A stretch of DNA of 35,345 nucleotides, taken from assembly GCA_019234945.1 (NCBI GenBank), contig JAFAKX010000099.1:1-35345 (forward strand), read 5' to 3'. This stretch comes from Silvibacterium sp. Its GTDB lineage: Bacteria > Acidobacteriota > Terriglobia > Terriglobales > Acidobacteriaceae. How positions within the stretch are numbered: position 1 is the stretch's first letter; every line of letters begins with the position of its first letter. Made by a program: the position numbers and the translations under genes. Below, in pieces: positions 3,257-33,659 of this stretch. A model generated the notes under the pieces. That model was not told where the DNA came from. It did no database searches and saw nothing but the letters and a program-made list of their open reading frames with translations.

Positions 3257-3259
3257 CCT

Positions 3260-9995: not shown

Positions 9996-10141
9996 GCATT
10001 TCCGGAGTCACGTGTCCCTTGAAGGTTTTGCTAGGTCGCCGCTCCCTGATGGTCCACCCCAGCGACGAAGATCTGTCGCTGTGGCCCGGGTAGCATCGAC
10101 ACTTGATCTGTCGCTTCGGGGTACATCAACTCCGAAAATGC
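9996..10141. repeat. Palindromic dispersed element, copy A
   Basis: This is one of three related elements in the window. Its ends are inverted (GCATTTCCGGAGT at 9996-10008 and ACTCCGAAAATGC at 10129-10141). A 22-bp core at 10033-10054 is identical to positions 33555-33576 in copy C. At 146 bp it is longer than the others: its centre has extra sequence with a repeated GATCTGTCGCT (10070-10080 and 10105-10115). It ends 12 bp before the GTG start of the giant minus-strand gene, so any promoter of that gene must lie in or beyond it. Confidence 0.8.
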
Positions 10142-10325
10142 GCTTGCCCGCCGATAAAACGAGCCCGGGTCCATTGCACACGACGCGCAGTGCTACTTGA
10201 GCGCCGGGAGGCACAGAAATCACAGGTCTGTTTCGACGTGGGAAAGTCGGCCCATTATGAAACCAGCGAACCGCGCGAGCCAGATTACTTTTGTTTGGAA
10301 CGATTGCAGCGCGAGCCAGGCCGGC

Positions 10326-10511
10326 TCACTCAATCCGGAAAACCGAACCGAACATCGGAAGGCCGCTCTTCGACGACTTCGTCGCTTCATCCTGGATCAC
10401 GTCCCAGTGTTCCTTGAGCTTTCCATCCTCCAAGCGGAGGATGTCCACCACGATCCAGTTTGCCGGCGATCCAAAACCGGAAACTGAGAATCGATCCCGA
10501 TTGCCGGGCAC
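10326..10511 (-). pseudogene. C-terminal remnant of a SnoaL-like/NTF2-fold protein
   Basis: Reading from GTG at 10511, the frame gives about 61 residues ending in a TGA at 10326-10328. The stretch VVDILRLEDGKLKEHWDVIQDEATKSSKSGLPMFG closely resembles the end of SnoaL-like (NTF2-fold) proteins, in which a DIFRxExGKIxEHWDVIQ strand is followed by a short SGxxMF tail. Those proteins are normally about 130 residues. Here an in-frame TAG lies two codons upstream of the GTG, and no N-terminal half is recognisable. I read it as a decayed fragment. The adjacent 10142-10325 and 10512-10609 hold nothing I can identify. Confidence 0.65.
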
Positions 10512-10609
10512 CCGCTATGCAGAGGGATCCTCGCAGATCAGGTCATGTATCGCTCTCTAGAAATCCATGATCCGCATTCGCCTCATCCAAGCAGGAAGAG
10601 GTGACGAGC

Positions 10610-11128
10610 ATGCCCGAGAAAGAAACCCTGGAACGAGCGAAAGAAGATCTGCGCGAAGGCAAGTCGCCCAAGACGGCGGCGGGAGAATTCATTCACGAAG
10701 AGATTGAGCATGTCCGCGAGGGTAAGCACGGGGTCCGTTCCCCTCAGCAGGCAATCGCTATCGGCTTGAGCAAAGCGCGCCGGGCTGGCATTCCTGTGCC
10801 TCCTCCGGCGAAGGGCAAGGCAAAAGAGAGTACAAGGACAAGCGCGGAACGTGACTATGAGAAAGGGCAGTCCGGTGATCGCGAAAAGCCATCGGCCCGC
10901 AGGTCCCGCGCGCGTGAGGAAGTTCTCCAGCGCGAGCCCCACTCGACCGCCTCACATCAGGCTCTCTCGAGACAGGCTCGAAAGGCCGCGAAGTCGAGAA
11001 CCAGCAAGGAACGCCATGACGCTGCGGAGAAGGCGGTAAGGACCAAAGGCAAAACAGGACTGAAGCAGGCAGCCAAGAAAGCCGCTGCCACGCGATCCCG
11101 AACCCGGACCAGAAAACGCGCGGCTTAG
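10610..11128 (+). CDS. DUF6496 domain protein with a basic histone-like tail
   Basis: The 172-residue product begins MPEKETLERAKEDLREGKSPKTAAGEFIHEEIEHVREGKHGVRSPQQAIAIGLSKARRAGIPVPPP, which matches the DUF6496 pattern as I know it; its function is not established. The remaining 110 or so residues are very rich in Lys, Arg, Ala and Ser and end in KKAAATRSRTRTRKRAA, like histone H1-type bacterial tails, so nucleic-acid binding is plausible but inferred. The start is ATG at 10610, nine bases after AGGAAGAGG (10592-10600); a GTG at 10601 directly abuts that site and is too close. The gene is flanked on both sides by remnants of other genes. The frame after its TAG continues open into the MFS remnant. 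Confidence 0.8.
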   Translation: MPEKETLERAKEDLREGKSPKTAAGEFIHEEIEHVREGKHGVRSPQQAIAIGLSKARRAGIPVPPPAKGKAKESTRTSAERDYEKGQSGDREKPSARRSRAREEVLQREPHSTASHQALSRQARKAAKSRTSKERHDAAEKAVRTKGKTGLKQAAKKAAATRSRTRTRKRAA

Positions 11129-11422
11129 CGACAGGTCAGCCGAGTCGATCGGGTCGCCCATCTGCACAAGAGAGATACCTTCTTCGAGCGCTATTTCAAC
11201 TCTCTGGAGCGGGCGGGCCGCCGCAGCGGGGCTAGCCTCGCGACCGCGTGCCACTACAATCTGGCACAACTGCAGCAAATCGTCGATTCGCAGGCGAACG
11301 TACTTGCCTACATCAGCGCTTTTTTCTTATTCGGAATGATCGTTGCGTTTCCTATCCCGCTGCCATTCCTCATGAAAGGTCCTTCAACCGAGGAGACGGC
11401 TGCAGCCCAGGGCATGCACTAG
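11129..11422 (+). pseudogene. C-terminal remnant of an MFS (DHA2-type) efflux transporter
   Basis: Directly after the DUF6496 stop, in the same frame, 97 codons stay open to a TAG at 11420-11422. The translation contains FFERYFNSLERAG, then YNLAQLQQIVDSQANVLAY, a membrane segment ISAFFLFGMIVAFPIPLPFL and MKGPS. This is the layout of the end of EmrB/QacA-like drug exporters, where a QQQAxxLAYxDxFxLxG segment forms the last helix and is followed by a short Lys/Arg-Pro tail. No start codon precedes this part, and the other 13 or so helices are missing, so it cannot be a working transporter. It is best read as debris left when the DUF6496 gene came to lie upstream. Confidence 0.7.
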
Positions 11423-11428
11423 GGCCCT

Positions 11429-12250
11429 TTATTGCTGTTGCGGCTGCGGGGCGCTCTGTGGAGCAGGATATTGCGGCGCGGCGTTCCCGGGACGACTGCC
11501 TGGTTGAGCAGGTGCCGATGGCTTCGGATGCTCCAGCAACTTGAACCCATCCCGAACGACGGAAAAATTCTGCTGGAGAAGATCTGCCTCGAGCACCTGG
11601 CCGTCGGGGGTATAAAACAGATCGACATCGATCGAGTTCTCCGAACTGACAGCGACCCTCGCGTGCTGCACTTCGATCTGTGAACCGTTGAGCTGTCCCC
11701 GGACGCTGGACCCGGGCGCAATGGTCGACGGGACCAGGATGCCGTCTTCTTTGGGAATCAGAATCCAAGATGTTGGCGGATTCTCTGTAGCCACCCGACT
11801 CAGCAGCAGATAAGCTGCCGGGTCGAGATCGAGCAGCAAAACCAGGTGCTGGTGCCGGTCCACTGTGTTTTGGGTCTGTTTGCTGTTAGCGGATACGCCG
11901 ATCTGAAACTGGCGGCCCGTTGGGTCCGAAGCGGCGGTAAATGTAACGGCACTCCCGTTGACGCTGCCGCTGAGTTCATCCCGAACCAGATTGAGGCTGC
12001 TGTCAAGACTCTGCGTATTGCTGAAGCTATAGCTGAATTTCGTCAGGTTCAATTTGCCGTGGGACGTGATGGAGTATCCGTTAGCGGTGGTCTGGACAGT
12101 GTAGTCCCCTTCGCCAACGGTTTTCCCATCTTGATAGATGCCATAGTGAGCAGAACCGGCGGTGAGCGCGGGCTGGCCGAAAGAGGCGGCGGCCGTAATC
12201 GACAAGGCAGAAACAAGAGCAAAGGTGCGGCAAAAGGCAGAGACGTACAT
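11429..12250 (-). CDS. Exported protein of unknown function with a Pro/Gln-rich tail
   Basis: The 273-residue product starts with a clear signal peptide (MYVSAFCRTFALVSALSITAAASFGQ). The mature part opens with HYGIYQDGKTVGEGDYTVQTTANGYSITSHGKLNL and goes on with alternating strands (SYSFSNTQSLDSSLNLVRDELSGSVNGSAVTFTA), which suggests a beta-rich fold. The pattern of a short ligand- or lipid-cradle type sheet is reminiscent of DUF3108/DUF6134-like periplasmic proteins, but I cannot assign it. The last 35 or so residues are Pro, Gln and Ala rich (SAPAQPGSRPGNAAPQYPAPQSAPQPQQQ). The start is ATG at 12250. It lies 125 bp downstream of the superoxide dismutase gene on the same strand, with a hairpin between them, so it probably has its own transcript. 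Confidence 0.8.
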   Translation of the reverse strand: MYVSAFCRTFALVSALSITAAASFGQPALTAGSAHYGIYQDGKTVGEGDYTVQTTANGYSITSHGKLNLTKFSYSFSNTQSLDSSLNLVRDELSGSVNGSAVTFTAASDPTGRQFQIGVSANSKQTQNTVDRHQHLVLLLDLDPAAYLLLSRVATENPPTSWILIPKEDGILVPSTIAPGSSVRGQLNGSQIEVQHARVAVSSENSIDVDLFYTPDGQVLEADLLQQNFSVVRDGFKLLEHPKPSAPAQPGSRPGNAAPQYPAPQSAPQPQQQ

Positions 12251-12320
12251 TCGCGCTAGAATCCTCTACCTTCTCAGACACATATTGGCCCCGGAAAGAT
12301 GCGCTGCAACATGCCGGAAA

Positions 12321-12356
12321 GGGTATGGGACAACGTGCTCCGGTTTCCCGATACCC
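12321..12356 (-). terminator. Possible hairpin after the superoxide dismutase gene
   Basis: GGGTATGGGA (12321-12330) pairs with TCCCGATACCC (12346-12356) with one bulge and a 15-nt loop. It lies 20 bp beyond the minus-strand sod stop. There is no good T-run after it, so termination is only a guess. A 12-bp direct repeat GCTCCGGTTTCC (12337-12348 and 12359-12370) overlaps the area. Confidence 0.35.
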
Positions 12357-12375
12357 TCGCTCCGGTTTCCTTCGG

Positions 12376-12987
12376 CTATTTCTGGGCCTGTTCGAACCGC
12401 TTGTTGATTTCGTCCCAGTTCACAACGTTCCACCAAGCGGCAAGATATTCGGGCCGGCGGTTCTGATATTTCAGGTAGTAAGCGTGCTCCCAGACGTCGT
12501 TGCCGAGGATCGGGAACTTTCCTTGTATGAACGGGCTGTCCTGATTCGCCGTCGTCGTGATCGTCAGCTTGCCGTTATCCCACAGGAGCCAGCCCCACCC
12601 GGAGCCGAACTGTTTGGCGGTCGTTTCATTGAACTGCTTCTTGAAAGATTCGAAGTCGCCGAAATCCTTGCGGATCTGCGCGACGATCGTGCCCGTGGGC
12701 TCACCGCCGCCGTTCGGCTTCATGATGTTCCAGAACATTGTGTGGTTGACGTGGCCGCCACCGTTATTTCGCACTGTAGTGCGAATATCCTCGGGGATGC
12801 TGTTGATGTTCCGCAAGAGATCCTCGGGAGCGTGCTTCCCGAGTTCCGGATGCTTTTCGATGGCGCCGTTGAGATTGGTAACGTAGGCCTGGTGGTGCTT
12901 GTCGTGGTGAAGATGCATCGTCTGCTCGTCGATATAGGGCTCGAGCGCAGCATAGTCATAGGGCAATGGTGGAACTTCGTATGCCAA
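12376..12987 (-). CDS. sodA: Superoxide dismutase, Mn type
   Basis: The enzyme converts superoxide to oxygen and hydrogen peroxide. The 203-residue length and N-terminus [20 protein letters not shown] are canonical for the Fe/Mn family. The four metal ligands are visible: His27 (in HLHHDKHH), His81 ([11 protein letters not shown]), Asp163 and His167 (NDVWEHAYY). The GGGH before the second ligand and Gln148 in NQDSPF favour manganese over iron; this is inference from family patterns. The start codon is TTG at 12985-12987, chosen because the canonical N-terminus begins there and GGAG lies about nine bases upstream. No signal peptide is present, so it acts in the cytoplasm. It seems to be monocistronic. 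Confidence 0.95.
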
Positions 12988-13389
12988 AGCGTTTCTCCTT
13001 CACTCGTGATTGCTCATACCAGAATCTTCGCGCCGTTCCAGCAGAATTCAGGGGACGCGTCCTCGATCATAATGGATGCGGCAGCGTAATGGAGCGCTGC
13101 AAGCACAAAGCTATGGCCAACCTATCTGATCGGGTTTGCAGCGTTGAATCAAATGGTTAGGCTACCGCGGGAATGCCCGGGGGTTGAGTGCTCTACTTTG
13201 TTTGGGACTTCGGTTAAAAATGCGGCAGTTATCTGCGACCGCAGCGTAGCGTGGAACATCTCGGCGTAGGAAGCGAGGAATCGACCACGCTCGCTGGAGA
13301 CCATCGCAGCCTTTAGATAAACTGCCCTATGCGGTGTTTTTGGGGCATCAGAATTTCTGGTGGCCGCTGCTTTTAGAATTGATTAGGCC
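12988..13389. other. Intergenic region with a long imperfect hairpin
   Basis: No gene was found between the divergent sod and glucanase genes. A long imperfect inverted repeat spans about 13216-13342: AAAAA at both outer ends, GGCAGTTATCT (13224-13234) against AGATAAACTGCC (13315-13326), CTGCGA (13233-13238) against TCGCAG (13304-13309), and CAGCG-T-AGCGTGG (13242-13254) against CCACGCTCGCTG (13285-13296). The loop contains AAGCGAGGAATC. It could be a decayed dispersed palindrome or a structured RNA upstream of the next gene. Confidence 0.55.
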
Positions 13390-14820
13390 TTGGCTCGTTC
13401 GAAGATAACTCGTCGACAACTGCTGCGAACGGCAGGCGCCTCAGGCATGTTAGCACTGGGAGCGCCGGCAATGGCGATGGCGGAGGGCCTTCAGAACCAG
13501 CCGCAAGCTCCCCAAGTCAAGCCCGGACAGGAACCACAGCCCGAGTCACAGGCTGCGCAAAAGTATCCTCAACAACTCGGCGCCTTCATCAACCGCCCAC
13601 TGACCCAGGTATCGAAGGCCGCTGAGACCCTGCTCGATGATCTTGTGGGCCGTGGCTGTGATTTCTTCTACAACGAGGCAAGCCCGAGGAGCGGGCTGGT
13701 GCGCGATCGGGCTCCGGCGGCTGGCCGCTCGCTCAGCCGGGTAGCCAGCATTGCCGCCACGGGTTTCGGGCTGAGCGCCCTGTGCATCGCGGCAAAGCGA
13801 AACTACCTGCGCCAGGGCGACTGTGAAGCGAGGATCGAAAAAACGCTGGCCTTTCTGCTTGAACAATGCCCTCACGAGCATGGATTTCTCTACCATTTCA
13901 TCGATATGGAAAGCGGCCAGCGCATGTTTGGCAGCGAGCTCTCGTCGATCGACACCGCCCTGCTGCTCTGTGGAGTGCTACTCTGCCGTCAGTACTTTGA
14001 AGGAAACACGCGCATCGCCGCCCTTGCGACCACGTTTTATCGCCGAATCGATTGGCAGTGGATGCTGAACGGGGGCACGACCCTTTCGATGGGGTGGCTT
14101 CCGGACCAGGGTTTTCTGAGCCATCGCTGGGATATTTATTCCGAGCTCATGACCATGTACCTGATGGCAATCGGCTCCCCCACGCACCCCATCCCGGCCG
14201 ACACCTGGAACGCGCTGCAGCGGCCCGTGGTGCAGTTCGGCGGCATCGATTACATCAGCGGAGTCGCGCCCCTGTTCATTCACCAATACGCACACGCCTG
14301 GTGCGACTATCGCGATATCAGGGACCTTCACGCAAACTACTTCACCAACTCGATTGCCGCCACGCGCACCCACCAGTTGTGGTGCCTGACTCTTGGCAAG
14401 ACGTTCCCTTGGATTGACCAGGACATGTGGGGAATCACGGCGTCCGACTCACGGAACGGATACCGGGTATGGGGTGGTCCACCGGCCATGGGACCGCTGG
14501 ACGGAACTCTCGTGCCCTCTGCCGCCGCGGGATCATTGCCATTCCTCCCTGCCGAGTGCTCTCATGTGTTGTTGAGCATGCGGGAAAAAATGGGTGACCG
14601 CGTATGGACCCGCTATGGATTTGTGGATGCTTTCAATCCCAAAACGAACTGGTTCGCGACCGATATTCTCGGAATCGACCAGGGCGTCAGTGTCCTGATG
14701 GCAGAAAACCTACGAAGCGGCTTCGCCTGGCAGTACTTTATGAAGAACCGCGAGATCGTCCATGCGATGAACGAAGTGCAGTTCCATCCCGACCCGGAAG
14801 CCAATTCGCAGGTGCTGTAG
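13390..14820 (+). CDS. Tat-exported glucoamylase-fold hydrolase (GH144-like)
   Basis: The 476-residue product has a Tat-type signal (SKITRRQLLRTAGASGMLALGAPAMAMA) and a Gln/Pro-rich linker to about residue 60. The rest is an (alpha/alpha)6-type domain of the PF10091 glucoamylase group. Hallmarks are DFFYNEASPRSGLVRDR (about 92-107), ASIAATGFGLSAL, and the block near 408-445 with YGFVDAFNPKTNWFATDILGIDQGVSVLMAENLRSGFAWQ. Characterised relatives (GH144) cut beta-1,2-glucans; the substrate here is inferred. The frame has a TAG just six bases upstream, so the TTG at 13390 is the earliest possible start and is needed for the Tat motif. Its ribosome-binding site is poor. It heads a same-strand block with the GH15 gene and the pentose-phosphate genes, which suggests use of external or periplasmic glucan. 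Confidence 0.85.
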   Translation: MARSKITRRQLLRTAGASGMLALGAPAMAMAEGLQNQPQAPQVKPGQEPQPESQAAQKYPQQLGAFINRPLTQVSKAAETLLDDLVGRGCDFFYNEASPRSGLVRDRAPAAGRSLSRVASIAATGFGLSALCIAAKRNYLRQGDCEARIEKTLAFLLEQCPHEHGFLYHFIDMESGQRMFGSELSSIDTALLLCGVLLCRQYFEGNTRIAALATTFYRRIDWQWMLNGGTTLSMGWLPDQGFLSHRWDIYSELMTMYLMAIGSPTHPIPADTWNALQRPVVQFGGIDYISGVAPLFIHQYAHAWCDYRDIRDLHANYFTNSIAATRTHQLWCLTLGKTFPWIDQDMWGITASDSRNGYRVWGGPPAMGPLDGTLVPSAAAGSLPFLPAECSHVLLSMREKMGDRVWTRYGFVDAFNPKTNWFATDILGIDQGVSVLMAENLRSGFAWQYFMKNREIVHAMNEVQFHPDPEANSQVL

Positions 14821-14933
14821 ACTCTGGGCGAAAGCCAGAAAACATGTAACTCATTCTTGGAAGTTTCATCTCTCTAGGGTAGAGTTCTGGCCTTGGGCAT
14901 TTGACCAGGTCGCCGAAAATTACGGAGCGATTG

Positions 14934-17390
14934 ATGACGGAGTTGCTACCACAATATTCATGGGTTGAGGGTCAGGGCCAGGCGTTCGGCGCACCGGGCA
15001 TGGAGCCACGCTGGACGTCGGCGGCGAAAGACACGGTGGGCACCGCGTACGCGGCATCGAGCCGCGCCTGGTACACCGTTTCGCATGGCATTCTGAACGA
15101 GATCTACTACCCAACCATCGACCGCCCGCAGATTCGCGACATGGGATTTCTGATCACGGACGGAGAAACCTTCTTCCACGAAGAAAAGCGTGACCTGAAG
15201 CACGAATGTACGTACATCGATTCAGATACGCTGGGCGTGCGGATTACCTCGCACGATTCCGACGGCCGGTACACACTCATAAAAGAAATCATTAGCGACC
15301 CACACTATCCGGTTGTCCTGATCCGGGCGCGACTCGAGGGTGATAAGGAATTTTTGTCTCGCCTGAGCGTGTATGTTCTGCTGGCTCCGCATGTCGATGG
15401 CGGCGGGGCGGGAAACTCGGCGCGCACACTGCGGGTAAATGGCGAGTTGGCAGCCGTGGCGTGGAAAAATGGAACCTCTCTTGCGCTCGCGACGGTCGGC
15501 GGATTCGTGCGCGCCAGTTGCGGATATGTCGGCAAGAGCGACGGCTGGCAGGATCTCAAACACAACCTGATCATGGATTGGGAGTTTGGCTCGGCGCTCG
15601 ATGGAAACATCTCCGTGATGGGCCAGATCGATCCAGAGCGCCACAGTGATTTCACCATTGCGATCGGCTTCGGCGAAGGGCATCATGCGGCCCTTGTGGC
15701 AACGATCGGATCGCTGGGAACCCCCTTCGAAAGGCACCTCAAGCGCTTCATCGAGCAGTGGCACCGTGCCGCAAGTCCCCGCGAATGGGCGGTAAACTCC
15801 AACGACGGTGGCCGTCTTCTGCAGATCAGCCACAACGTGGTGCTCGCCCACGAAGACAAGACCTATGCGGGCGCATTCATCGCATCGGCTTCGATCCCGT
15901 GGGGCTACTCGAAAAGCGATGACGACCTCGGCGGGTATCACCTTGTCTGGACCCGTGACATGGTGCAGAGCGCAACAGCCCTGTTGGCCAGCGGGCGGGT
16001 CGATACAGCCCGCCGCGCCCTGACGTATCTCGCGTGCACGCAGCGTCCCGACGGAGGATTCGCCCAGAACTTCTGGATCGACGGAACGCCATACTGGACC
16101 GGCATCCAGCTCGACGAAGTGGCGTTCCCTATCATGCTCGCCTGGCGGCTTTGGAAACTGGATGGGCTGGGCAACTGGGACGTATTCCCGTTCGTTGAGC
16201 GGGCTGCGGGTTTCCTGGTGCGCTATTCGCCCATCACTCAGCAGGAGCGTTGGGAAGAGAACGCGGGCTACTCGCCTTCAACACTGGCAGCCGTAATTGC
16301 GGGCCTCGTCTGCGCGGCAGAACTGGCGGACGCGCACGGGTCTCCGGAGCTCGCGAGCTTTCTCTGCGAATACGCGGACTGGATCGAGAGTCATCTGGAA
16401 GACTGGACGGTGACCAATGATGGCGTGCTTCTGCCCGGCGTGCAGCGCCATTACATGCGTATCCGGCCTCCGGAATGCGGCGAGCCGTATGCCCATGAAG
16501 AATGCGGCAAAGAAATGGTCCATATCGCGAACCGCGGCCCGGGAGAGAAAGCGGATTTCGAGGCTCGCGAGGTTGTAGACACAGGCTTCCTGGAACTGGT
16601 GCGTTACGGTATCCGGCGTCCCGACGACCCAGTGATCGTGAATACTCTGAAAGTGATCGACCATGTTCTGAAGATCGATACGCCGAAAGGCCCGTGCTGG
16701 CGACGCTATAACCACGACGGCTACGGTCAGCGTCACGATGGCGGCCCGTTTGCGGGGTTCGGTCAGGGACGCGCCTGGCCGCTGCTTACCGGTGAGCGCG
16801 CACATTATGAATTGGCTGCCGGCAACGACGTCAGTGCACTTGTTGCGTCGTTCGAGAATTTTGCTTCCAAGGGTGGCATGTTCCCCGAACAGATCTGGGA
16901 CGAGCCCGACAAAAAAGGACTCGTCTTCGGCGGCCCCGCAGGCTCGGCGATGCCGCTCGTCTGGGCGCACGCGGAGTATCTCAAACTGCTGCGCTCCATT
17001 CACGACGGCCGGGTTTTCGACAAGATCGACCCCGTTGAGAAGCGCTACGCCAACGGACGAGACAGAATAAAGCTTGAGATCTTTAAGCTGCGCCGGCCCA
17101 TCAAGCAAATTCGCGCCGGGTATACTCTTCGCATCGTGGCGGCGGAGCATTTTCGCGTGCTGTGGACATCCGACGGCTGGCAGTCGGTTACTTCGGTCGA
17201 AAGCGCAACTGTGGGCCACGCAGGATCTTTCGCCGATATTCCGGTGAGAAGCGGGCAGACCGGGACGATTTCGTTTACTCTTTTCTGGCCGATGCAAAAC
17301 CGTTGGGACGCCATCAATCACGATGTAACAATCGAACCGGAGGAGCAGGCCGGACCCGAAATTTCCGCCTACGAACTGCAAAAGGTTTGA
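14934..17390 (+). CDS. GH15 glucoamylase/glucodextranase-type glucosidase
   Basis: The enzyme should release glucose from the ends of alpha-glucans or malto-oligosaccharides. I chose ATG at 14934, six bases after GGAG (14924-14927), over a TTG at 14901; this gives 818 residues. The N-terminal part to about residue 280 matches the glucodextranase-like N domain (TVSHGILNEIYYPTIDRPQIRDMGFLITDGETFFHEEKRDL). The catalytic (alpha/alpha)6 domain follows with VWTRDMVQSATALLA, DGGFAQNFWIDGTPYW and the general-acid region EENAGYSPSTLA (Glu441-Glu442). The second conserved glutamate is Glu621 in WPLLTGERAHYELA. The C-terminal 120 or so residues form a beta-rich extension. No signal peptide is visible, so it is probably cytoplasmic. 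It sits 113 bp after the GH144-like gene and 116 bp before tkt. Confidence 0.92.
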   Translation: MTELLPQYSWVEGQGQAFGAPGMEPRWTSAAKDTVGTAYAASSRAWYTVSHGILNEIYYPTIDRPQIRDMGFLITDGETFFHEEKRDLKHECTYIDSDTLGVRITSHDSDGRYTLIKEIISDPHYPVVLIRARLEGDKEFLSRLSVYVLLAPHVDGGGAGNSARTLRVNGELAAVAWKNGTSLALATVGGFVRASCGYVGKSDGWQDLKHNLIMDWEFGSALDGNISVMGQIDPERHSDFTIAIGFGEGHHAALVATIGSLGTPFERHLKRFIEQWHRAASPREWAVNSNDGGRLLQISHNVVLAHEDKTYAGAFIASASIPWGYSKSDDDLGGYHLVWTRDMVQSATALLASGRVDTARRALTYLACTQRPDGGFAQNFWIDGTPYWTGIQLDEVAFPIMLAWRLWKLDGLGNWDVFPFVERAAGFLVRYSPITQQERWEENAGYSPSTLAAVIAGLVCAAELADAHGSPELASFLCEYADWIESHLEDWTVTNDGVLLPGVQRHYMRIRPPECGEPYAHEECGKEMVHIANRGPGEKADFEAREVVDTGFLELVRYGIRRPDDPVIVNTLKVIDHVLKIDTPKGPCWRRYNHDGYGQRHDGGPFAGFGQGRAWPLLTGERAHYELAAGNDVSALVASFENFASKGGMFPEQIWDEPDKKGLVFGGPAGSAMPLVWAHAEYLKLLRSIHDGRVFDKIDPVEKRYANGRDRIKLEIFKLRRPIKQIRAGYTLRIVAAEHFRVLWTSDGWQSVTSVESATVGHAGSFADIPVRSGQTGTISFTLFWPMQNRWDAINHDVTIEPEEQAGPEISAYELQKV

Positions 17391-17506
17391 AACCGATGAC
17401 AGTTCTGGAGAGTCATCCTTTAGGAATCTGAGTCGTGTTTTGTAGACGCCTATCAAAAACACTGTAAAGACGGGCGCCCAGCCCGGAACCCCGAAATGAG
17501 GTTTTC

Positions 17507-19528: not shown

Positions 19529-19578
19529 TTCAGAAATCGCTCGAAGCCCGCTCACCCCCACTCAGGAAAGGACGAGCT

Positions 19579-20202: not shown

Positions 20203-20269
20203 TTTTGGCTTCACCAACCGGAAGCCTACGATGCCGGATTAGACTCGTGAAAGGCGCAAGGAGGATTCT

Positions 20270-21814: not shown

Positions 21815-21832
21815 ACCGTAGATTCGGAGCGC

Positions 21833-22633: not shown

Positions 22634-22652
22634 CGATCACGGTGATCAACGA

Positions 22653-23675: not shown

Positions 23676-23714
23676 AGATTCGCAAACCGTTGAGCACCCC
23701 GGCACTTAAACGAT

Positions 23715-24092: not shown

Positions 24093-24112
24093 AATAAGGT
24101 TCCTGGCATAAA

Positions 24113-25735: not shown

Positions 25736-25822
25736 TCCACTGAATCGAGCCGCGCGGACAATCTCGGCAAGCAGCGGCCACCCACTTTGCGATATCGTAA
25801 AGACTGGTGTTTCCGGCGTTCA

Positions 25823-25933
25823 GCATTTTTGGAATAGGTGTATCCAGTGGCACAGAGTTCAAGGCGACGCGACCAACGGTGAGCGGCGGCCTTGGCGTAT
25901 TTTTCAAGGGGACACGGTATTTCCAAGAAGGTG
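25823..25933. repeat. Palindromic dispersed element, copy B (inverted)
   Basis: The sequence is the reverse complement of copy C with moderate divergence. The left end (25823-25845) differs at only two of 23 positions from the reverse complement of 33603-33625. The core at 25871-25892 corresponds to the 22-bp core of the other copies. The right end is more diverged. It ends 41 bp before the ATG of the M1 aminopeptidase gene. A reading frame of that gene runs through it, but it is not part of the protein. Confidence 0.75.
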
Positions 25934-25974
25934 TTGGATCGCGCCGCCCGCCCATTTCATCCAAGAGACAATCC

Positions 25975-28575
25975 ATGCAATTCTTTCAACGACCTCTAGG
26001 TGCGGGGCTTATCCTCGCCGTCATGACTTTTCTCGCCGGGCAGATCCACGCTCAAAGGCTGCCGCAGACCGTTCATCCCGAGCATTACCAGCTCACCCTC
26101 ACGCCAGATCTCAAAGATGCAACCTTTAGCGGTAGCGAAAAGATTGCGGTCGTGCTCGATCAGCCCTCCGATTCGATCACTCTGAACGCAGCCGAGATCA
26201 AGTTCCAAAGCGTAACCACCAAAGCAGATGGCACGGAACTGAAGGCCACAGTGGCCGAAGACCCGGCAAAGCAGCAGGCCACGTTCAAGTTCGATCGCAC
26301 ACTTCCGGCCGGCCCTCTCACGCTGCAGATCGAGTACACCGGCATTCTGAACGGCCAACTGCGCGGCTTCTACCTTTCCAAGACCGCCCGGCGCAATTAC
26401 GCCGTGACTCAGTTCGAGCCTACCGATGCACGTCGGGCATTCCCTTCATTTGACGAGCCGGCGATGAAAACCACTTTCGACGTCACTCTGGTTGTCGATA
26501 AGGGCGACACCGCCATCTCGAACACCAACATCGTTGCGGACACCCCAGGCCCCGGCCCGAACAAGCACACCATCCACTTCGCGACTACGCCAAAGATGTC
26601 GACTTATCTGGTTGCATTTCTGGTTGGCGACCTCCAGTGCACCTCGGGCGAAAGCGACGGCACCCCGATCCGCGCCTGCGCCACTCCAGACAAGGTGGAA
26701 TACACGAAGTTCGCGCTATCCGCCGCAGAATTCGTCCTCCACTATTACAACGACTACTTCGGCATCAAGTACCCGATGCCCAAGCTCGACATGATCGGGC
26801 TGCCTGATTTCGAAGCGGGCGCGATGGAAAACTTTGGCGCAATTACCTATCGCGAAACTGACCTGCTGATCGACGAAAAGACCGCCTCAGTCGGCTCGAA
26901 GAAGAACGTCGCTCTCGTGGTTGCGCACGAAATGGCCCACCAGTGGTTCGGCGACATGGTCACCATGCAATGGTGGGATAATCTGTGGCTGAACGAAGGC
27001 TTCGCCACCTGGATGGAAAACAAGCCCGTGGCGGCATGGCATCCGGAGTGGAACATCCCGCAGGACGTCGCCGCCGGCTTGAATGGCACCCTGAACCTCG
27101 ACGCACAGCGCACCACGCGCACCATTCGCGCCAAAGCCGAGACTCCTGACGAGATCAACGAGATGTTCGATGGCATTACCTACGGCAAGGCCGGAGCGAT
27201 GCTGCTGATGGTGGAGAACTACGAAGGCGAAGGTACCTTCCGCCAGGGCGTACACAACTATCTCGCCGCCCATATGTATGGCAACGCTACAGCCGAGGAT
27301 TTTTGGAATGCGCAGACCGCGGTCAGCCACAAGCCGGTAGACAAAGTAATGGAGAGCTTCGTAGAGCAACCCGGCGAGCCCCTCCTGACCTTTGAAAACC
27401 CCAGCGGGAACACCGTCGCTGCCAGCCAGCAGCGCTTCTTTCTGAGCCCCAGCGCAAAGACTGACAAGGCGCAGACATGGTCGGTCCCTGTTTGCTTCAA
27501 GGCAGGTGGCCAAAACGAGAACTGCAAAGTCCTTTCTCAGACTCAACAATCACTGTCGACACCGGTAACTCCGTTTCTCTTTGCCAACGCACAAGGCAAA
27601 GGCTACTACCGCACCAAATACCCGGCCGATATCTACGCGAAAATCGTTGCCAATGTTGAGGCCGGCCTCACACCGGAGGAACGCATTATCCTGCTCGGCG
27701 ATGAGTGGGCACAGGTGCGGGCGAACATAGCACCGGTGGGAGACTATCTCAATCTTGCTGCGGCTGTGAAGGATGATCCCAGCGGTACGGTCATCGAAAC
27801 TGCTCTTGGCAGCGTCGAGTCCATTTATTCGCGCATCGCGGCGACTCAGCAGGAGCGTGATGCTCTTTCAGCCTGGGTCCGGCAGACTTTCAAGCCGTCC
27901 TTCGACCGGCTGGGAGCGCCATCTCCAGACGATACTCCCGAAAAGAAGGAGCTGCGCGCCGCCTTGTTCGGAGCTCTCGGCACCATCGGCAAGGATCCGG
28001 GCGTCATAGCACAGGCGAAAGAACTGGCGGAGAACTATCTCAACGACCAGCATTCTGTAGACTCGACGCTCGCGGAAACCGCTATGGGAATAGCCGCCGT
28101 CAACGGAGACGCTGCCTTCTACAATCACCTGCAGAAGGTAGCTGAGACGGCGACCAATCCTGAGCTCCAGGAGGACAGCCTTCACCTTCTGGCAGAGTTC
28201 AAGGATGCATCCCTCGAGAAGCGCTCCCTCGACTACACCGTGTCCGGCAACGTAAGAAATCAGGACTCGGTCATCGAGTTGCTCATCATGTTGCGCGGCA
28301 CAGACACTCGCGATCTTGCCTGGAACTACATCCAACAGAACTGGGACAGGGTAAAGGCACAACTCACGACCTCGATGGGTGGCTACCTTGTAAGCGGGGC
28401 CGGCAGCTTCTGCAGCGCGGAAAAGCGCGACGAGGTGGTGAGCTTCTTCACCACCCACCAGGTCCCGGCGTCTCAGCGGGCGCTGGCCAGGGCAAAGGAT
28501 CAGATCAACGACTGCATCGAGCTTCGTTCATTGCAGGAGCCCAATCTGAAAGCCTGGATTTCCAGCGACAAGTAG
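25975..28575 (+). CDS. Exported M1 family aminopeptidase
   Basis: The product is a zinc aminopeptidase that removes N-terminal residues from peptides, and is probably periplasmic. I chose ATG at 25975, which gives 866 residues with a clear signal peptide (MQFFQRPLGAGLILAVMTFLAGQIHAQ). The frame is open upstream to 25807, but that part runs through a dispersed repeat. The exopeptidase motif GAMEN is at 282-286. The zinc site is HEMAHQWFGD with His318, Glu319 and His322, and the third ligand Glu341 in NLWLNEGFATW, spaced as in the family. The N-terminal beta domain (17-230) and a C-terminal helical ERAP1_C-like domain (about 540-850) are visible. A strong terminator follows 25 bp after the stop, so the gene is the end of a transcript. 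Gene name pepN is avoided because cytoplasmic PepN differs. Confidence 0.92.
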   Translation: MQFFQRPLGAGLILAVMTFLAGQIHAQRLPQTVHPEHYQLTLTPDLKDATFSGSEKIAVVLDQPSDSITLNAAEIKFQSVTTKADGTELKATVAEDPAKQQATFKFDRTLPAGPLTLQIEYTGILNGQLRGFYLSKTARRNYAVTQFEPTDARRAFPSFDEPAMKTTFDVTLVVDKGDTAISNTNIVADTPGPGPNKHTIHFATTPKMSTYLVAFLVGDLQCTSGESDGTPIRACATPDKVEYTKFALSAAEFVLHYYNDYFGIKYPMPKLDMIGLPDFEAGAMENFGAITYRETDLLIDEKTASVGSKKNVALVVAHEMAHQWFGDMVTMQWWDNLWLNEGFATWMENKPVAAWHPEWNIPQDVAAGLNGTLNLDAQRTTRTIRAKAETPDEINEMFDGITYGKAGAMLLMVENYEGEGTFRQGVHNYLAAHMYGNATAEDFWNAQTAVSHKPVDKVMESFVEQPGEPLLTFENPSGNTVAASQQRFFLSPSAKTDKAQTWSVPVCFKAGGQNENCKVLSQTQQSLSTPVTPFLFANAQGKGYYRTKYPADIYAKIVANVEAGLTPEERIILLGDEWAQVRANIAPVGDYLNLAAAVKDDPSGTVIETALGSVESIYSRIAATQQERDALSAWVRQTFKPSFDRLGAPSPDDTPEKKELRAALFGALGTIGKDPGVIAQAKELAENYLNDQHSVDSTLAETAMGIAAVNGDAAFYNHLQKVAETATNPELQEDSLHLLAEFKDASLEKRSLDYTVSGNVRNQDSVIELLIMLRGTDTRDLAWNYIQQNWDRVKAQLTTSMGGYLVSGAGSFCSAEKRDEVVSFFTTHQVPASQRALARAKDQINDCIELRSLQEPNLKAWISSDK

Positions 28576-28599
28576 AGCCAACAGAACAACAAACAAGGG

Positions 28600-28626
28600 A
28601 CGGGCGGAAAGGATTCCGCCCGTTTT
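28600..28626 (+). terminator. Rho-independent terminator after the M1 peptidase gene
   Basis: ACGGGCGGAA (28600-28609) pairs perfectly with TTCCGCCCGT (28614-28623) around an AGGA loop and runs into TTTT. The 10-bp GC-rich stem makes this the best terminator in the window. It also argues against a TTG at 28630 as the start of the next gene. Confidence 0.9.
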
Positions 28627-28671
28627 CTATTGCGGCCGAGCCGGATCAAGCTCACCGATAAGATAAGAGCT

Positions 28672-29379
28672 GTGACCACATTCAAAGACAGACTGGCCGC
28701 CATCGAAGAGCGCATCGAACAGGCATGCAGGCGCGCCGGCCGCCGTCGTGAGGAAGTACGACTGATGGCCGTCTCGAAGGTGCATCCCGTCGAGGCAATA
28801 TTCGAAGCGGCTGAAGCCGGGGTATCGCTTTTCGGCGAGAACCGAGTTCAGGAGTTCGAGCGCAAACGGCCCGAGTTAGTACACCTCAATCAGATTGAGG
28901 TGCACCTAATAGGACACTTGCAGGCGAACAAATCGGCGAAAGCCGCCGAACTGTTTTCAGCTATCGACACCCTGGATTCGCTTCGCCTCGCCGAACGGCT
29001 CAACGACGCTGCGCAAAAGTTGAATCGCAGCCTTCCAGTGCTCCTCGAAATCAAGCTGAGCCCCGAAGCCACGAAGACCGGACTTGATCCCGCCGGACAC
29101 GAACTCGACGAATTGCTCGACCGGATGCCGGATCTTTCCCACCTCTACGTACGCGGTCTCATGACCATCGCTCCCCTCGACGAGAATCCCGACTCTGCCC
29201 GAAACTGCTTCCGGCAATTGCGCAGGCTGCGCGATGAACTGGCGGCGCGGCATTCCCGACTCAATCTGTCACAGCTGTCTATGGGCATGTCGGGCGACTT
29301 TGAGATAGCCATCGAGGAAGGCTCGACCATGGTGCGCATCGGGACTGCGTTGTTTGGAAAACGCGAGGTCCGGCCTTGA
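28672..29379 (+). CDS. yggS: YggS family PLP homeostasis protein
   Basis: The family (YggS/PLPBP) binds pyridoxal 5'-phosphate and keeps its level in balance; it has no known catalysis. From the GTG at 28672 the product has 235 residues, the usual length, and begins with TFKDRLAAIEERIEQACRRAGRRREEVRLMAVSK. The PLP lysine is Lys36 in AVSK. Further hallmarks are FGENRVQEF, HLIGHLQANKS, LSPEATKTGLDP, RGLMTIAPL and LSMGMSGDFEIAIEEGSTMVRIGTALFG. A TTG at 28630 in the same frame lies only four bases past the terminator and is unlikely. The DUF167 gene overlaps its stop by four bases, and this pairing is widely conserved. Confidence 0.93.
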   Translation: MTTFKDRLAAIEERIEQACRRAGRRREEVRLMAVSKVHPVEAIFEAAEAGVSLFGENRVQEFERKRPELVHLNQIEVHLIGHLQANKSAKAAELFSAIDTLDSLRLAERLNDAAQKLNRSLPVLLEIKLSPEATKTGLDPAGHELDELLDRMPDLSHLYVRGLMTIAPLDENPDSARNCFRQLRRLRDELAARHSRLNLSQLSMGMSGDFEIAIEEGSTMVRIGTALFGKREVRP

Positions 29380-29675
29380 AAGCCGACAAGGCAAACGAGG
29401 CGTCGTTCCTCGTCCGTGTAACGCCGCGGGCCCGGCGCACTCAGTTCACTGGACTGATGCAGGATGGTGCAAACACCATCATTAAAATCGCCGTCGCCGC
29501 CCCACCCATCGATGGACGCGCGAACGCCCAGTTGATCTCCTGGCTCGCATCCGTGCTGGACGTGCCCCGTTCCGCAATCGAAGTTGCTTCAGGCGAGCAC
29601 TCACGAAACAAGCGGGTGCGCGTCAGAGGCTGTACGATGGCTGACATCGAAAAGACATTCAAGCCTGACGGGTAG
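29376..29675 (+). CDS. DUF167 (YggU) family protein
   Basis: The 99-residue product is a small alpha/beta protein of unknown function. The family pattern is clear: FLVRVTPRARRTQF, then IKIAVAAPPIDGRANAQLISWLASVLDVPRSAIEVASGEHSRNKRVRVRG. The start is TTG at 29376, which overlaps the yggS stop as TTGA; this coupling, and the loss of the N-terminal strand with any later start, support it. The stop is TAG at 29673-29675. The 122 bp to the convergent kinase gene hold no clear terminator. Confidence 0.9.
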   Translation: MKADKANEASFLVRVTPRARRTQFTGLMQDGANTIIKIAVAAPPIDGRANAQLISWLASVLDVPRSAIEVASGEHSRNKRVRVRGCTMADIEKTFKPDG

Positions 29676-29797
29676 GGCGATAGCAACTGCGAAAAGTGCA
29701 CCCCCCATCATCCGATTAAACTGCTAAAAAGAGCCATCAACACAAACTTCCGTAATCGCCGACCATCCGGTTAGAGGGCCCAAAAGGTGGCAGTCTC

Positions 29798-32700
29798 TCA
29801 AAAAACCGATTGACGTGGAGCAGACAATTTGGCGTATGCAATCGAGGCAGGAATCGTCAGCTCGACCTCCGTACCCGAATCGGGCTTACTCTGAACAGTT
29901 AACTTCCCCCCGGCAAGTTTGGCGCGCTCCTGCATGCCGGCCAAACCAAAGTGTCCTTCACGGCCGCCATCCAGAACCTGCGGGTCGATGCCTTTTCCGT
30001 TGTCCTGGACGAGCACTCGAAGCTGTTTTCTGTCGTAGCAGATTTTGACTTTAATCCGCCCCGCGCCGGAATGCCGGAAGGCATTGCATGTGGCCTCGCT
30101 GGCGATGCGGTACACCTCGTCCCTCAGGATCGGGTGCAAATCTCGCGACTCTCCTTCCACCACTACATGAAAGTCCACGGGTGTCTGGGCATTTTGCTCT
30201 GCCGCGAGTCTTTCTCCGTCCCTGGCGAGGGCACAGGCGAGGTCGTTTTGGATGACCGCCGAGGAGCGCATCCCACGCACCGCAGCCCGACCCTCGTTGA
30301 TGGCCTCTTGGCCCTGCTCCAGGAAACCCTCCAGCCTCTCGCGTGCTTCAGCTGGCAGTTCCCGGATGTGGGCTAACGTATGAAACTTCATCATCACGCC
30401 CTGAAAACTTTGCAGCATCGTGTCATGCAAGTCCCGCGCGATGCGCGTTCGTTCGGCGACGCGCTCTTCCAGACGGATGTTGAATTGCCGCGCCTGCTGG
30501 TACATCCGCAGTCGATGGAACGCATAGAGCGACGCCAGTAATGCAGCCACGCATGACAAACGGAACCAGACGGTCTGGTAATACGCGGGTGCGACGGAGA
30601 AATCGAGGAATGTCCCGGCCTCGTTCCACACGCCGCTGTTATTACAAGCCATCACGCGGAAGCGGTAGTTGCGGGGAGGCAGATTGGTATAGAACGCTTG
30701 CCGTCGATTGCCGGCCTCTTGCCAATCGCTGTCCAGGCCTTCCAGCTTGTAGCGAAAGAACACCTTTTCCGGCGCGACCAAGCTGAGCGCCGTATAGTCG
30801 ATCTGCAAGTCGCGCACCCGCGCGGGCAGAGACAGGCGCTCACCCACAGTGGAAGCCGGGTCGTAGGTCTTGCGGTCAGCGGTGATCTGCTCGATGTGCA
30901 CCGGCGGCGGAAGCTTGTTGAAGGGAAGGTGGTGGGGATCGACGACGCTGACGCCGTCCCCGGCCGAGAACCACAGTTTTCCATCCGAGGACCTGGCGAC
31001 CTGCGGAGTGTAGCCGCCAGGTCGAAAGTGTCCGAAGTCAAAACGCGATATGCCCGCGTGGCTTGTTACTCCGTCGGAGCTGTCGAAAACCGTGGCTTGT
31101 ACCATCCGCTTGGTCTCTTTATCCCTGTCTGCTGCGGCGGCCCAGGCGTCCAACTCGGAGCGCGCAATGCGAACCAAGCCGCACGGCATGTAGAGCCAGA
31201 ACGAATGGTCGTTGTCCTGTATCACCCAGTGAACCGCATCACAGGGCAGCCCGTTCTTGCCGGTCAGCGTGGCAATGCGACCGTTCTTCAAGCGGCTGAG
31301 TCCGCCTTCTGTGGCGGCCCAAACGGTACCGTCTGGATCGAATCGAAAACGGCTAACCCTGCCCTCGCCCAGCCCGTCGGCGGCACCGAACGATGCGCGG
31401 ACCTCACCATCACGAAAATACTCGATGCCGCCGTTAAAGAATCCAAGCCACAGGCCACCCTGCACAGGATCAGCGGCTAGAGCGCTAGCGTTATCTTTAT
31501 GTCGCAACCTGTCCCGAGGAATTTGTTGGACCTCACTTCGCGCAGACAAACGAAAAAGACCGCTTTCCTGGTTGGCAATCCACAGGTTTCCCGCCTTGTC
31601 CTGCGCGATGCCATGCACGGGACCACCGGGAACGCCGCTTATGGGAGCAAATCGGTCATTCTCGAGGTATCCGACCCCGGCATTCGTGGATATCCAGATT
31701 TGCCCGCGATCATCCTGAAACAGAGAATTCGGGGCGAGTCCATTGAGTTTCCCATCTTGTTTCACGCTGCCGGTACGGGCAATCGTGATCTTCCCGTGAT
31801 TCCACCGGTTCAAGCCGCCATAGGTGCCGAGCCAAACGCTTCCATCCCTGTCCGCTAGAACCGATCCGACAGCGGCACTCGACAATCCTTGCTTCACGGA
31901 AAGCGTGGTGACGGCAAAGTCGCGAAAGCGGTCAAGGCCGTTTAACGTAGCGGCCCAAACACTGCCTTCGCGATCTTCGAAGAGGGCCAAAACGTTATCG
32001 CCCGTGAGTCCGTCAGGCAGCGAAAAAACATCCGTCTGTCGCTGATGTACATGCACAAGGCCCCGGTCCGAAGCTCCGACCCACAGACCGCCATCGCGAT
32101 CGCGGAGTAGCCTTCGGGTTACGAAATGCTGCACGTTGCCTGGGAGCGGATACGGCTCGGGTTTCCCACCAACGAGTCGCCTCATTCCGCCGCGCATGCC
32201 GATCAAAAGTGTGCCGTCATCGTCTTCAGCCAGACCTCGGATTCCGTCCGGCTCGCCCGGCAGCGAATAGAATTTTGGCGGACCAGGTTTCCATTGCCAT
32301 AGCCCATCTAGCGCTCCCATCCAGAGATTGCCTTTGCCGTCCTCGAGCAAGCTGACCACGCCATGGCCAAGAGCGCCGTCCTCCCCGAAGCACTGAGCAG
32401 TGCCACCGTGAATTGCGCATAGCTTCCCTGGAGGAGGAAACGCCAGCCCGCCGGCCCATACGGTGCCTTCCCGATCCTCAAGGAGCGCAGAAATAATTTG
32501 CCCAGCAAGTTCCGGGTACTCAGTCAGCTTGCCGTCCTTCCAACTTGCCAGCCCCTTCCAAGTGCCGATCCAAAGAGTCCCGTCGCGCGTGCCCAGCAGC
32601 CTCCGAATATAAGTGGAGGGGAGATGCTGACCCCGGGGGGGCTGCCAGGGGACGCTCCGAACGCCATCGAAGCGAAGCAAGCCGAATTCCGTGCCCAGCC

Positions 32701-32884
32701 AGAGGTAACCGTCAGGCGTCTGGGCAATTGAGACGATTGTGCCTTTCGTAAGGCCCTCGCGGACCTTCCACGCCGTGTGCGCGTACTGGCTGATGTCGAG
32801 CGAGGGATCGAGGGCAGAAGCACAGGTGCAGCACACCAGCAGAATGCCAGCCACGATCATGGCTCTGCAACGCACCTTGCCCAT
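29798..32884 (-). CDS. Propeller-type sensor histidine kinase (Reg_prop/Y_Y_Y)
   Basis: The 1028-residue product has a signal peptide or first membrane helix (MIVAGILLVCCTCASA). About twelve blade motifs of the two-component propeller type follow (WLGTEFGLLRFDG, WIGTWKGLASW, WVGASDRGLVHV, WLGTYGGLNRW and others) to about residue 650. A Y_Y_Y domain covers about 680-760, and a membrane helix near 765-785 (VWFRLSCVAALLASLYAF) leads to the cytoplasmic part. This has HisKA_3 with the phospho-accepting His820 in RIARDLHDTMLQSFQG and a HATPase domain with Asn934 (CNAFRHSGAG), DNGKGIDP and GHFGLAGMQERA. There is no receiver domain and no response regulator in the window. Periplasmic propellers of this type sense glycans or other ligands; the ligand is unknown. 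The ATG at 32884 has a weak ribosome-binding site. Confidence 0.93.
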   Translation of the reverse strand: MGKVRCRAMIVAGILLVCCTCASALDPSLDISQYAHTAWKVREGLTKGTIVSIAQTPDGYLWLGTEFGLLRFDGVRSVPWQPPRGQHLPSTYIRRLLGTRDGTLWIGTWKGLASWKDGKLTEYPELAGQIISALLEDREGTVWAGGLAFPPPGKLCAIHGGTAQCFGEDGALGHGVVSLLEDGKGNLWMGALDGLWQWKPGPPKFYSLPGEPDGIRGLAEDDDGTLLIGMRGGMRRLVGGKPEPYPLPGNVQHFVTRRLLRDRDGGLWVGASDRGLVHVHQRQTDVFSLPDGLTGDNVLALFEDREGSVWAATLNGLDRFRDFAVTTLSVKQGLSSAAVGSVLADRDGSVWLGTYGGLNRWNHGKITIARTGSVKQDGKLNGLAPNSLFQDDRGQIWISTNAGVGYLENDRFAPISGVPGGPVHGIAQDKAGNLWIANQESGLFRLSARSEVQQIPRDRLRHKDNASALAADPVQGGLWLGFFNGGIEYFRDGEVRASFGAADGLGEGRVSRFRFDPDGTVWAATEGGLSRLKNGRIATLTGKNGLPCDAVHWVIQDNDHSFWLYMPCGLVRIARSELDAWAAAADRDKETKRMVQATVFDSSDGVTSHAGISRFDFGHFRPGGYTPQVARSSDGKLWFSAGDGVSVVDPHHLPFNKLPPPVHIEQITADRKTYDPASTVGERLSLPARVRDLQIDYTALSLVAPEKVFFRYKLEGLDSDWQEAGNRRQAFYTNLPPRNYRFRVMACNNSGVWNEAGTFLDFSVAPAYYQTVWFRLSCVAALLASLYAFHRLRMYQQARQFNIRLEERVAERTRIARDLHDTMLQSFQGVMMKFHTLAHIRELPAEARERLEGFLEQGQEAINEGRAAVRGMRSSAVIQNDLACALARDGERLAAEQNAQTPVDFHVVVEGESRDLHPILRDEVYRIASEATCNAFRHSGAGRIKVKICYDRKQLRVLVQDNGKGIDPQVLDGGREGHFGLAGMQERAKLAGGKLTVQSKPDSGTEVELTIPASIAYAKLSAPRQSVF

Positions 32885-32924
32885 TGTGAATCCATCTTAA
32901 TCCAGCCGCAACGGCCTTCATGCT

Positions 32925-32940
32925 TGTGATTCTTTTCACA
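32925..32940 (-). promoter_or_regulatory. CRP/FNR-family-like palindrome upstream of the kinase gene
   Basis: TGTGA-TTCTTT-TCACA is a perfect match to the CRP half-sites with the right 6-bp spacer. It lies inside a wider inverted repeat (CTTCATG at 32916-32922 and CATGAAG at 32939-32945). Its centre is 48 bp upstream of the kinase ATG. A possible -10 box TAAGAT lies at 32894-32899 on the minus strand with no good -35, which would fit an activator-dependent promoter. The binding protein is unknown. Confidence 0.5.
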
Positions 32941-32945
32941 TGAAG

Positions 32946-33516
32946 CCCGGGTTTCCAGGGTGTAACTCTAGCTCTGTTCCAAAATTGAAGCGGCGAGGGT
33001 GAGGTATGACTCACCCGAGTCCGGCCCGATGCCGGCCCTTATTGGCGACTAGCTCGAAATTGCGAAGTTGCCGTATCACGGGAACACGGAAGTTATTTCC
33101 CGGCGAAGAATTTATTCACCGCATTTGGATCAATACTGATTGCGCGGGTGCGGTCTCACGTGTTCGTTACGAGCCTTTGTCAGCATTCTTCGAGACAAGC
33201 CTGTTTCGCCGCATAAGAAATGGCCGTGGAATTCCCTCCAATTGGGTCTTACTTCTCTTTCCCAATAATCTCGCTTGGCATCGGGATATACGGTATAGAC
33301 GCTTTCTGCCTGAATGAATCAAACCCGCATCGACTTCTTCCAGCTTGTTCGATTCTTTGCCGATAAAAGTGATCTCGCCGATTCGAACGTGTCGTCTGAA
33401 CACTCACGCTGGGCTCCTTGGCCGGTTCGCACGTCTTGCAATATTCGCAAATCGCCCGCGAGAGCCCCTACCCCATCCAAAGCCTGACAACTGCACCCAA
33501 CTCCCGTACACTTATG
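32946..33516. other. Long intergenic region without a recognised gene
   Basis: About 570 bp upstream of both flanking genes hold no product that I recognise. Frames such as 33167-33403 (minus) and 33006-33317 (plus) are open, but their translations have no family signature and no convincing ribosome-binding site. Local structures are short: GGTGAG/CTCACC near 33000-33016 and CCGGC/GCCGG just after. The base composition appears less GC-rich than the neighbouring genes, so this may be decayed or imported DNA. Confidence 0.5.
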
Positions 33517-33625
33517 GCATTTTCGGAATCACTGTGTCCCGTCGAAAGTGTGCCAGGTCGCCGCTCCCTGATGGTCGCGTCGACTTTTGAGCAATGGTTT
33601 CGGGATACACCAATTCCGAAAATGC
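33517..33625. repeat. Palindromic dispersed element, copy C
   Basis: This is the most regular of three related elements. Its 25-bp ends (33517-33541 and 33601-33625) are inverted repeats identical at 21 of 25 positions, starting GCATTTTCGGAAT. The centre holds the shared 22-bp core at 33555-33576, identical to 10033-10054 in copy A. It ends 34 bp before the ATG of the sodium:solute symporter gene. No transposase is encoded. Confidence 0.85.
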
Positions 33626-33659
33626 TGTACCGCTTGATCCCATCAACACAGGAAGACGA

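Follow-up and report, generated by a model that had tools for sequence, protein, structure and literature searches.

Three short palindromic elements, here called E1, E2, and E3, lie directly in front of three different genes on one 35,345-nucleotide stretch of DNA from Silvibacterium sp. (Acidobacteriota; contig JAFAKX010000099.1, positions 1 to 35,345; hereafter the window). Do they act as a shared control switch, or did they come to rest there as mobile DNA? The first-pass annotation of this stretch offered both ideas, describing the repeats as resembling miniature inverted-repeat transposable elements (MITEs) and their placement before genes for exported or membrane proteins as a possible sign of regulation. 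The mobile part of that description stands: IS630-type ends, a YTAR target, TA duplication, and empty sites make it very probable that the elements are a MITE family derived from IS630 (Tc1/mariner) transposons. Their position before the three genes is most likely the outcome of chance landing rather than of a shared control switch.

E1 (9996..10141, core in + orientation), E2 (25823..25932/3, core in - orientation), and E3 (33517..33625, core in + orientation) were confirmed at the positions first reported, with shared inverted ends and a shared core. Their distances to the neighboring start codons were likewise as annotated, being 41 bp for E2, 34 bp for E3, and 12 bp for E1, where the start is the GTG of a - strand gene. 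A 22-bp core, AGGTCGCCGCTCCCTGATGGTC, is indeed identical in E1 (10033..10054, +) and E3 (33555..33576, +). With E3 as the sole BLAST query, 25 match rows were returned from its own genome, including E1 at E = 1.0e-10 and E2 at E = 2.8e-8, both far beyond chance; a covariance model, trained on these copies, gave E-values of 9e-21, 2e-19, and 1.5e-31 for E1, E2, and E3, respectively. E3 is the best-preserved window copy, with 109 bp between its inner ends, and E2 is old and degenerate. E1, an old copy of the GCATTT[C/T]CGGA type, has lost its terminal TAs and, at 146 bp, is longer than the other two because an unrelated 38-bp hairpin repeat (10055..10092; motif GACGAAGATCTGTC, taken from the alignment) is nested in its core. 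Three copies in 35 kb compare with 0.30 expected from 30 in 3.5 Mb (P 0.004), a cluster noted post hoc.

The element is not confined to the window. In its own genome (3.50 Mb in 256 contigs, 72% complete), a covariance model built from a 20-copy alignment (19 distinct rows) returned 49 rows; 19 of these are second-strand readings of a palindrome already counted, which leaves at least 30 places. Five copies there are recent, at 97-100% identity. Further genomes carry the element, in total at least 8 of 9 in the genus and, with one genome sampled per genus, at least 11 of 60 in the family, the own genome included in both counts; G016 and G050 gave at least 52 rows each. Candidates scored per genome numbered 150 or 61 in the own-genome, genus, and family searches and 40 in the G050 searches, and all such counts are lower bounds and absences incomplete. 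Three sister genomes of G050 yielded no close copy with a G050 stretch holding two copies as the query and 40 candidates scored per genome. Across 84,980 species genomes, the exact core pattern occurred in 37 stretches, assigned by their record titles to Acidobacteriaceae bacterium (26), Acidobacteriales (8), Terracidiphilus (2), and Acidobacteriota (1). Plasmid and phage collections gave no match with one copy (L027) as the query. Among viral contigs, a single one carried the exact core pattern (L210, IMG/VR, its viral status being a database label), with a copy at 846-962 whose TA ends a 1566-codon reading frame.

Element anatomy was described from 171 copies, which are not a random sample: 28 of the 30 from the own genome, 38 from G050, 22 from G016, the 43 best-scoring of other genomes, and 40 from 38 exact-core stretches. 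Including both TAs, median length was 117 bp (range 114-161). From TA and a GAGC-like start, each element runs through an arm totalling 13 bp to a first inner box (near ACTGTGTCC); an apical hairpin separates this from a second inner box (near TTCGGGATACA), after which come the complementary arm and a closing TA. The apical hairpin exists in several versions, among them the core GGTCGCCGCTCCCTGATGGTCGCGTCGACTT; other hairpins replace this core in some copies of G016, G001, G002, and G061, and a second small hairpin sits inside the core of E1 and of the own-genome copies L041 and L050. Short, bounded by terminal inverted repeats, and without a transposase gene, the elements have the makeup of bacterial MITEs. 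Three 85-bp G050 copies (L214, L215, and L216) have lost most of the apical hairpin and kept both ends, as expected from deletion at a palindrome. An Rfam search of 16 loci (E up to 5) found no match overlapping the element; at L040:1839-1888, about 220 bases from an element, lies a weak match to the Acido-Lenti-1 RNA (RF01687, 30.6 bits, gathering score 37).

E3 was inserted cleanly, and an empty site proves its target duplication. The corresponding site reads CTCCCGTAGACT-TACCG in G004 and CTCCCGTAGACT-TACGG in G003, two sister species, and the window reads CTCCCGTACACT-TA-element-TA-CCGC, with the duplicated TAs at 33513..33514 and 33628..33629. Conservation of both flanks in both sister species points to a single TA as the most likely ancestral state. 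The matching gap in the same two genomes also lacks E2, whose worn edges preclude a base-exact join; a search of 16 stretches, the gaps corresponding to E2 among them, gave no model match at E up to 1. The gaps in G138 that match two G050 copies also hold no element; in the first the right flank matches from the TA onward, and the second is supported by gene order and spacing alone. The TA is retained at both sides in 91 of the 171 copies, at one side in 62, and at neither in 18. Outside stop codons, 49 copies with both TAs gave 98 sides, of which 90 have a purine next to the TA, and hence the target is YTAR. TA duplication and a CTAG/YTAR target are what IS630-derived MITEs show. A preference of IS630 transposons for the TA in CTAG was reportedly described by Tenzen and Ohtsubo in 1991, going by the title.

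Which enzyme moved these elements was addressed through IS630 relatives. Matches were obtained in 4 of 10 element-bearing genomes by a DDE_3 search and in 21 of 150 genomes, with 30 loci fetched, by a protein search. Both ends could be set for nine full-length IS630-type transposons of the same taxonomic family, 1025-1058 bp apart, with ends like TAGAGCATTTTCAATCAAGGTGTATAG, comparable to the right end of E3 read inward, TACAGCATTTTCGGAATTGGTGTATCC; DDE_3 was confirmed in all three proteins checked. Positions 3-27 of the short-element profile were then scored against 9,892 TA 27-mers outside known elements, a background in which some may be undetected fragments, and each of the 18 IS630 ends was matched or beaten by at most 13 of these. 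By comparison, the 10 ends of five control IS630 transposons, which came from these same searches, ranked 3122-7317. A sixth control, L265 (ends at ranks 1415 and 7439), was left out, as the positions chosen for its ends lay about 17 bp too far inside; its right end resembles the TAGAGC group. The target was YTAR in 9 of 9, and five of the nine end pairs were found by an inverted-repeat search without the element profile. G065 and G048, which hold IS630 transposons with these ends, also hold short elements.

Several observations weigh against this derivation. Four of the nine end pairs were chosen with the element's own profile, making the comparison partly circular, and the likeness is limited to the outer and inner boxes; spacer and interior differ, and a by-eye look at the printed ends revealed no interior in common. 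No IS630 DDE_3 match was found in 6 of the 10 element-bearing genomes searched, namely the own assembly (72% complete), G008, G010, G039, G050 (99%), and the one-contig G051. Nor did G050 hold a long copy with the same ends among 40 of 60 candidates scored. No transposition was observed, mobility being read from sequence. The missing DDE_3 matches would be explained by loss of the helper or, for the own genome, by a helper located in unassembled sequence. The mobilizer is most likely an IS630-type transposase acting in trans, and the nine transposons would represent the group from which it came. The first-pass annotation had proposed looking for a transposase or RAYT gene with matching ends; IS630 transposons with such ends were found in the same taxonomic family and none in the own assembly, and a RAYT partner is not supported. 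A solitary 16-bp element end, TAGAGCGGTTCCCGAG, was also seen in G050 (L219, G050:C41, about 1900-1920), 98 bp from a full copy and outside the listed copies; it may stand directly behind a gene end.

Under the IS630-derived MITE model, a transposase made elsewhere in the cell or population would bind the bipartite ends (outer box GAGC..TT.C, inner box GSTGTA), excise the element, and insert it into a TA within YTAR, with duplication of the TA. Many usable YTAR sites would be stop codons (TAG, TAA). Insertions there should be harmless and accumulate, because a TAG or TAA at the element's end re-creates the stop. If transcribed, a copy could fold into a long hairpin, and single copies such as E3 may alter the neighboring mRNA.

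Pairing between the two arms is kept while their sequence varies. Across the 171 copies, the left and right arms of the same copy pair at 12.24 of 13 positions, compared with 9.18 for arms from two different copies and 8.58 for copies whose left arms are unlike at no fewer than four positions; as the copies are related, these figures are a description rather than a count of events. There were 88 distinct left arms among the 171 copies, and the inner boxes and often the core persist. Within the 20-copy alignment, 9 of 13 arm pairs carried pairing-preserving changes on both sides, and arm plus core helix had a covariation score of 0.407, where shuffles gave 0.157 and slid versions no more than 0.168; further pair types, by contrast, numbered 23, a count that 40 of 500 shuffles reached. 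The two ends were alike at positions 14-16 in about 94% of short elements versus 14 of 27 cases in the IS630 relatives, whereas positions 18-24 showed the reverse trend (0.56-1.00 in IS630 versus 0.23-0.68 in short elements). Given this difference in end agreement, it is the short elements that are characterized by a near-perfect 13-bp arm. One speculative and rather unlikely account is that the family changes its ends as pairs, with hairpin-templated repair or selection on cruciforms rewriting both arms, so that a single MITE lineage could switch IS630 transposases and outlive each helper; TAG and TAA ends would then make stop codons a safe landing, most clearly in G050.

Placement relative to genes was analyzed with genes called by a home-made codon scorer, which in the window got at least two wrong (the large gene behind E1, at its start, and a gene at 10601-11128). 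Labels of L085, L086, L094, and L101 were assigned unchecked, which affects the gene models of the group of other genomes alone. In G050, the element's TA was the stop codon of the gene reading into it in 30 of 38 copies, the end of the element taking the place of the original stop; the corresponding counts were 4 of 28 in the own genome, 3 of 22 in G016, 8 of 40 in named records, and 15 of 43 in the others. As a baseline, 75 of 2,478 TAs in the G050 loci lie in stop codons, and once the elements are taken out, stops make up 54 of the 174 YTAR sites that fall in stops or outside genes, occupied sites counted. Element ends form exact stop codons. Where both TAs are present, the joined flanks gave TAG or TAA in 41 of 41, which agrees with the model and is not independent proof because the target is YTAR anyway. 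The distance to the nearest gene end followed suit in some genomes, with 32 of 37 copies nearer a stop in G050 against 64% expected at YTAR sites (p 0.003) and 17 of 22 in G016 against 51% (p 0.017). In named records the figure was 24 of 40 (p 0.87), and in the own genome a stop was the closer gene end for 16 copies and a start for 12 (15 and 13 under another distance rule), in agreement with the 54% expected from YTAR sites outside genes (p 0.85). These four p values are uncorrected, and because copies within a genome are related, placement tests overstate independence.

The biases in G050 and G016, together with arm pairing that survives sequence change, would also be expected if some species had adopted the MITE family as a 3'-end hairpin, for mRNA end protection or weak termination, with the stop-codon position selected and not merely tolerated. 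However, core orientation at stop codons was unbiased (32 same, 31 opposite), no terminator-like site was found around E3 in 33400-33680, 3' bias was lacking in the own genome and in named records, and plain purifying selection gives the same pattern. We therefore regard adoption as distinctly unlikely, and the distribution would instead reflect chance plus removal of harmful insertions.

Far less probable still is a conserved cis-regulatory leader, either an RNA hairpin or a regulator site, before genes for exported or membrane proteins. All three window copies do end 12-41 bp before a start codon, E1 and E3 form strong predicted RNA folds (z -4.0 and -5.8), and in the own genome 11 of the 13 copies within 100 bp upstream of a start had their core in opposite orientation to the gene and 2 in the same (p 0.02). 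Yet the fold of E2 was weak (z -1.6; 14 of 200 shuffles equally good), orientation was 26 to 26 in other genomes, so that the own-genome skew is perhaps chance, and within the window the core runs opposite to the downstream gene for E1 and E2 and along it for E3. The own genome showed neither the 5' excess nor the preference for exported or membrane proteins that would bear out the regulatory suggestion of the first-pass annotation: placement matched the YTAR expectation given above, and among genes starting within 200 bp, 6 of 20 encoded hydrophobic proteins versus 18 of 52 others (p 0.79, by a simple hydrophobicity cut). The two sister species, moreover, keep the downstream genes but carry neither E2 nor E3 at the matching loci. 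With no 5' bias genome-wide and a bias toward gene 3' ends in G050 and G016, the copies give no sign of a shared regulatory function.

E3 may still act locally. Directly before its left TA ends a promoter-like sequence, CTGACA-17-TACACT (33484..33512, +), which was the only such match within 33400-33680 (1 found, 0.1 expected in shuffles), and which speaks for the leader idea at this copy. Both empty sites, in G004 and G003, carry CTGACA-17-TAGACT at this position. With this promoter-like sequence, conserved in both sister species, immediately in front of it, E3 may be part of the symporter 5' leader. If the sequence is a promoter, transcripts would start within the left arm of E3 and have its hairpin (-49.6 kcal/mol) in their leader, a prediction limited to this copy.

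As improbable as the conserved leader is an origin as REP-type or TIR-type repeats, which are known from other Acidobacteria and are moved by Y1 tyrosine transposases (RAYT/TIRYT). Element ends often read CTA..TAG, like those of GTAG-tagged repetitive extragenic palindromes (REPs), described as often supplying a TAG stop in the cited part of PMC3733652, Y1 transposases occurred in 53 of 60 sampled genomes, and the hairpin nested in E1 may be a REP-type repeat. But the elements duplicate TA and their ends match those of IS630, Y1 genes have a much wider distribution than the element (53 of 60 versus at least 11 of 60 genomes), and the three Y1 loci examined (L211-L213) hold no element. A RAYT-type REP, a 20-40 bp hairpin beside Y1 genes, does not fit the length of about 117 bp or the three element-free Y1 loci.

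Our search of the literature outside supplements found no description of such a family in Acidobacteria or of a link between IS630, CTAG, and stop codons, and the IS630-derived elements apparently form an undescribed MITE family there, ordinary in kind. Among the nearest parallels by description, not by sequence, is RUP of Streptococcus pneumoniae, presented in the cited passages as a tightly folded 107-bp repeat with IS630-like terminal inverted repeats and a TA target, thought to be moved by IS630-Spn1 (PMC2229807, PMC3049150). Short length, IS630-like ends, and TA target are shared with RUP; unlike RUP, the present family has arms that differ between copies with compensating changes, and stop-codon copies in one species. 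IS630/ISY100 transposons of the Tc1/mariner type duplicate TA, and two helix-turn-helix motifs bind their ends, as far as the cited part relates (PMC2170065); the short elements differ in having no transposase and nearly perfectly paired 13-bp arms. MITEPsy1 of Pseudomonas syringae, as excerpted, is 100 bp long with a CTAG or YTAA target, which is like the present family, but has a 4-bp duplication and a suggested origin from ISPsy2, its family given as 'IS5?' (PMC3189936). Correia/NEMIS and ERIC/IRU are small mobile hairpins with TA ends and target duplication, and ERIC can change mRNA stability in an orientation-dependent manner, according to the passages cited (PMC2229807); they belong to other hosts, have other sequences (set apart by description), and contrast with the absence of orientation bias at stop codons here. 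GTAG-tagged REPs are 20-40 bp palindromes with Y1 transposases, and the cited passages on them make no mention of TA duplication (PMC3733652).

A guess about control elements has in this way become an insertion that can be placed on a tree, a hairpin behind a promoter-like sequence with an empty site in two sister species, and it warns against reading function into three repeats in front of genes. The family also allows two questions to be tested: the joint change of paired transposon ends, and the use of stop codons as harmless TA targets. Paired arm change and the heavy use of stop codons in one species deserve a further look.

The genes next to the elements were largely as first annotated. 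Downstream of E2 lies an M1 aminopeptidase gene (25975..28575, +; PF01433, PF11838, PF17900) and downstream of E3 a sodium:solute symporter gene (33660..35099, +; PF00474), both as named. The large gene downstream of E1 (5382..9983, -), previously called a giant BNR protein, instead matches ASH/HYDIN-type Ig domains in Pfam, with no BNR model at E <= 0.001. In G004 and G003 the symporter comes immediately after the conserved gene that precedes it, so that at this place a region was either gained or lost. A sensor-kinase-like gene between E2 and E3 (29798-32884) has many partial relatives in the own genome, some at contig ends (G000 contigs C64, C228, C145, C143, C177, C99, and C167). The hairpin nested in E1, with a GACGAANAYCTGTC core and C-rich and G-rich flanks, also occurs within L041 and L050 and stands free at two places in the fetched loci (L201:4792 and L207:1510). 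At L066 (G002), an element at 1501-1616 lies 3 bp from a tRNA at 1620-1692, and at L084 (G061) two near-identical copies (1369-1485 and 1703-1819) lie 217 bp apart in the same orientation.

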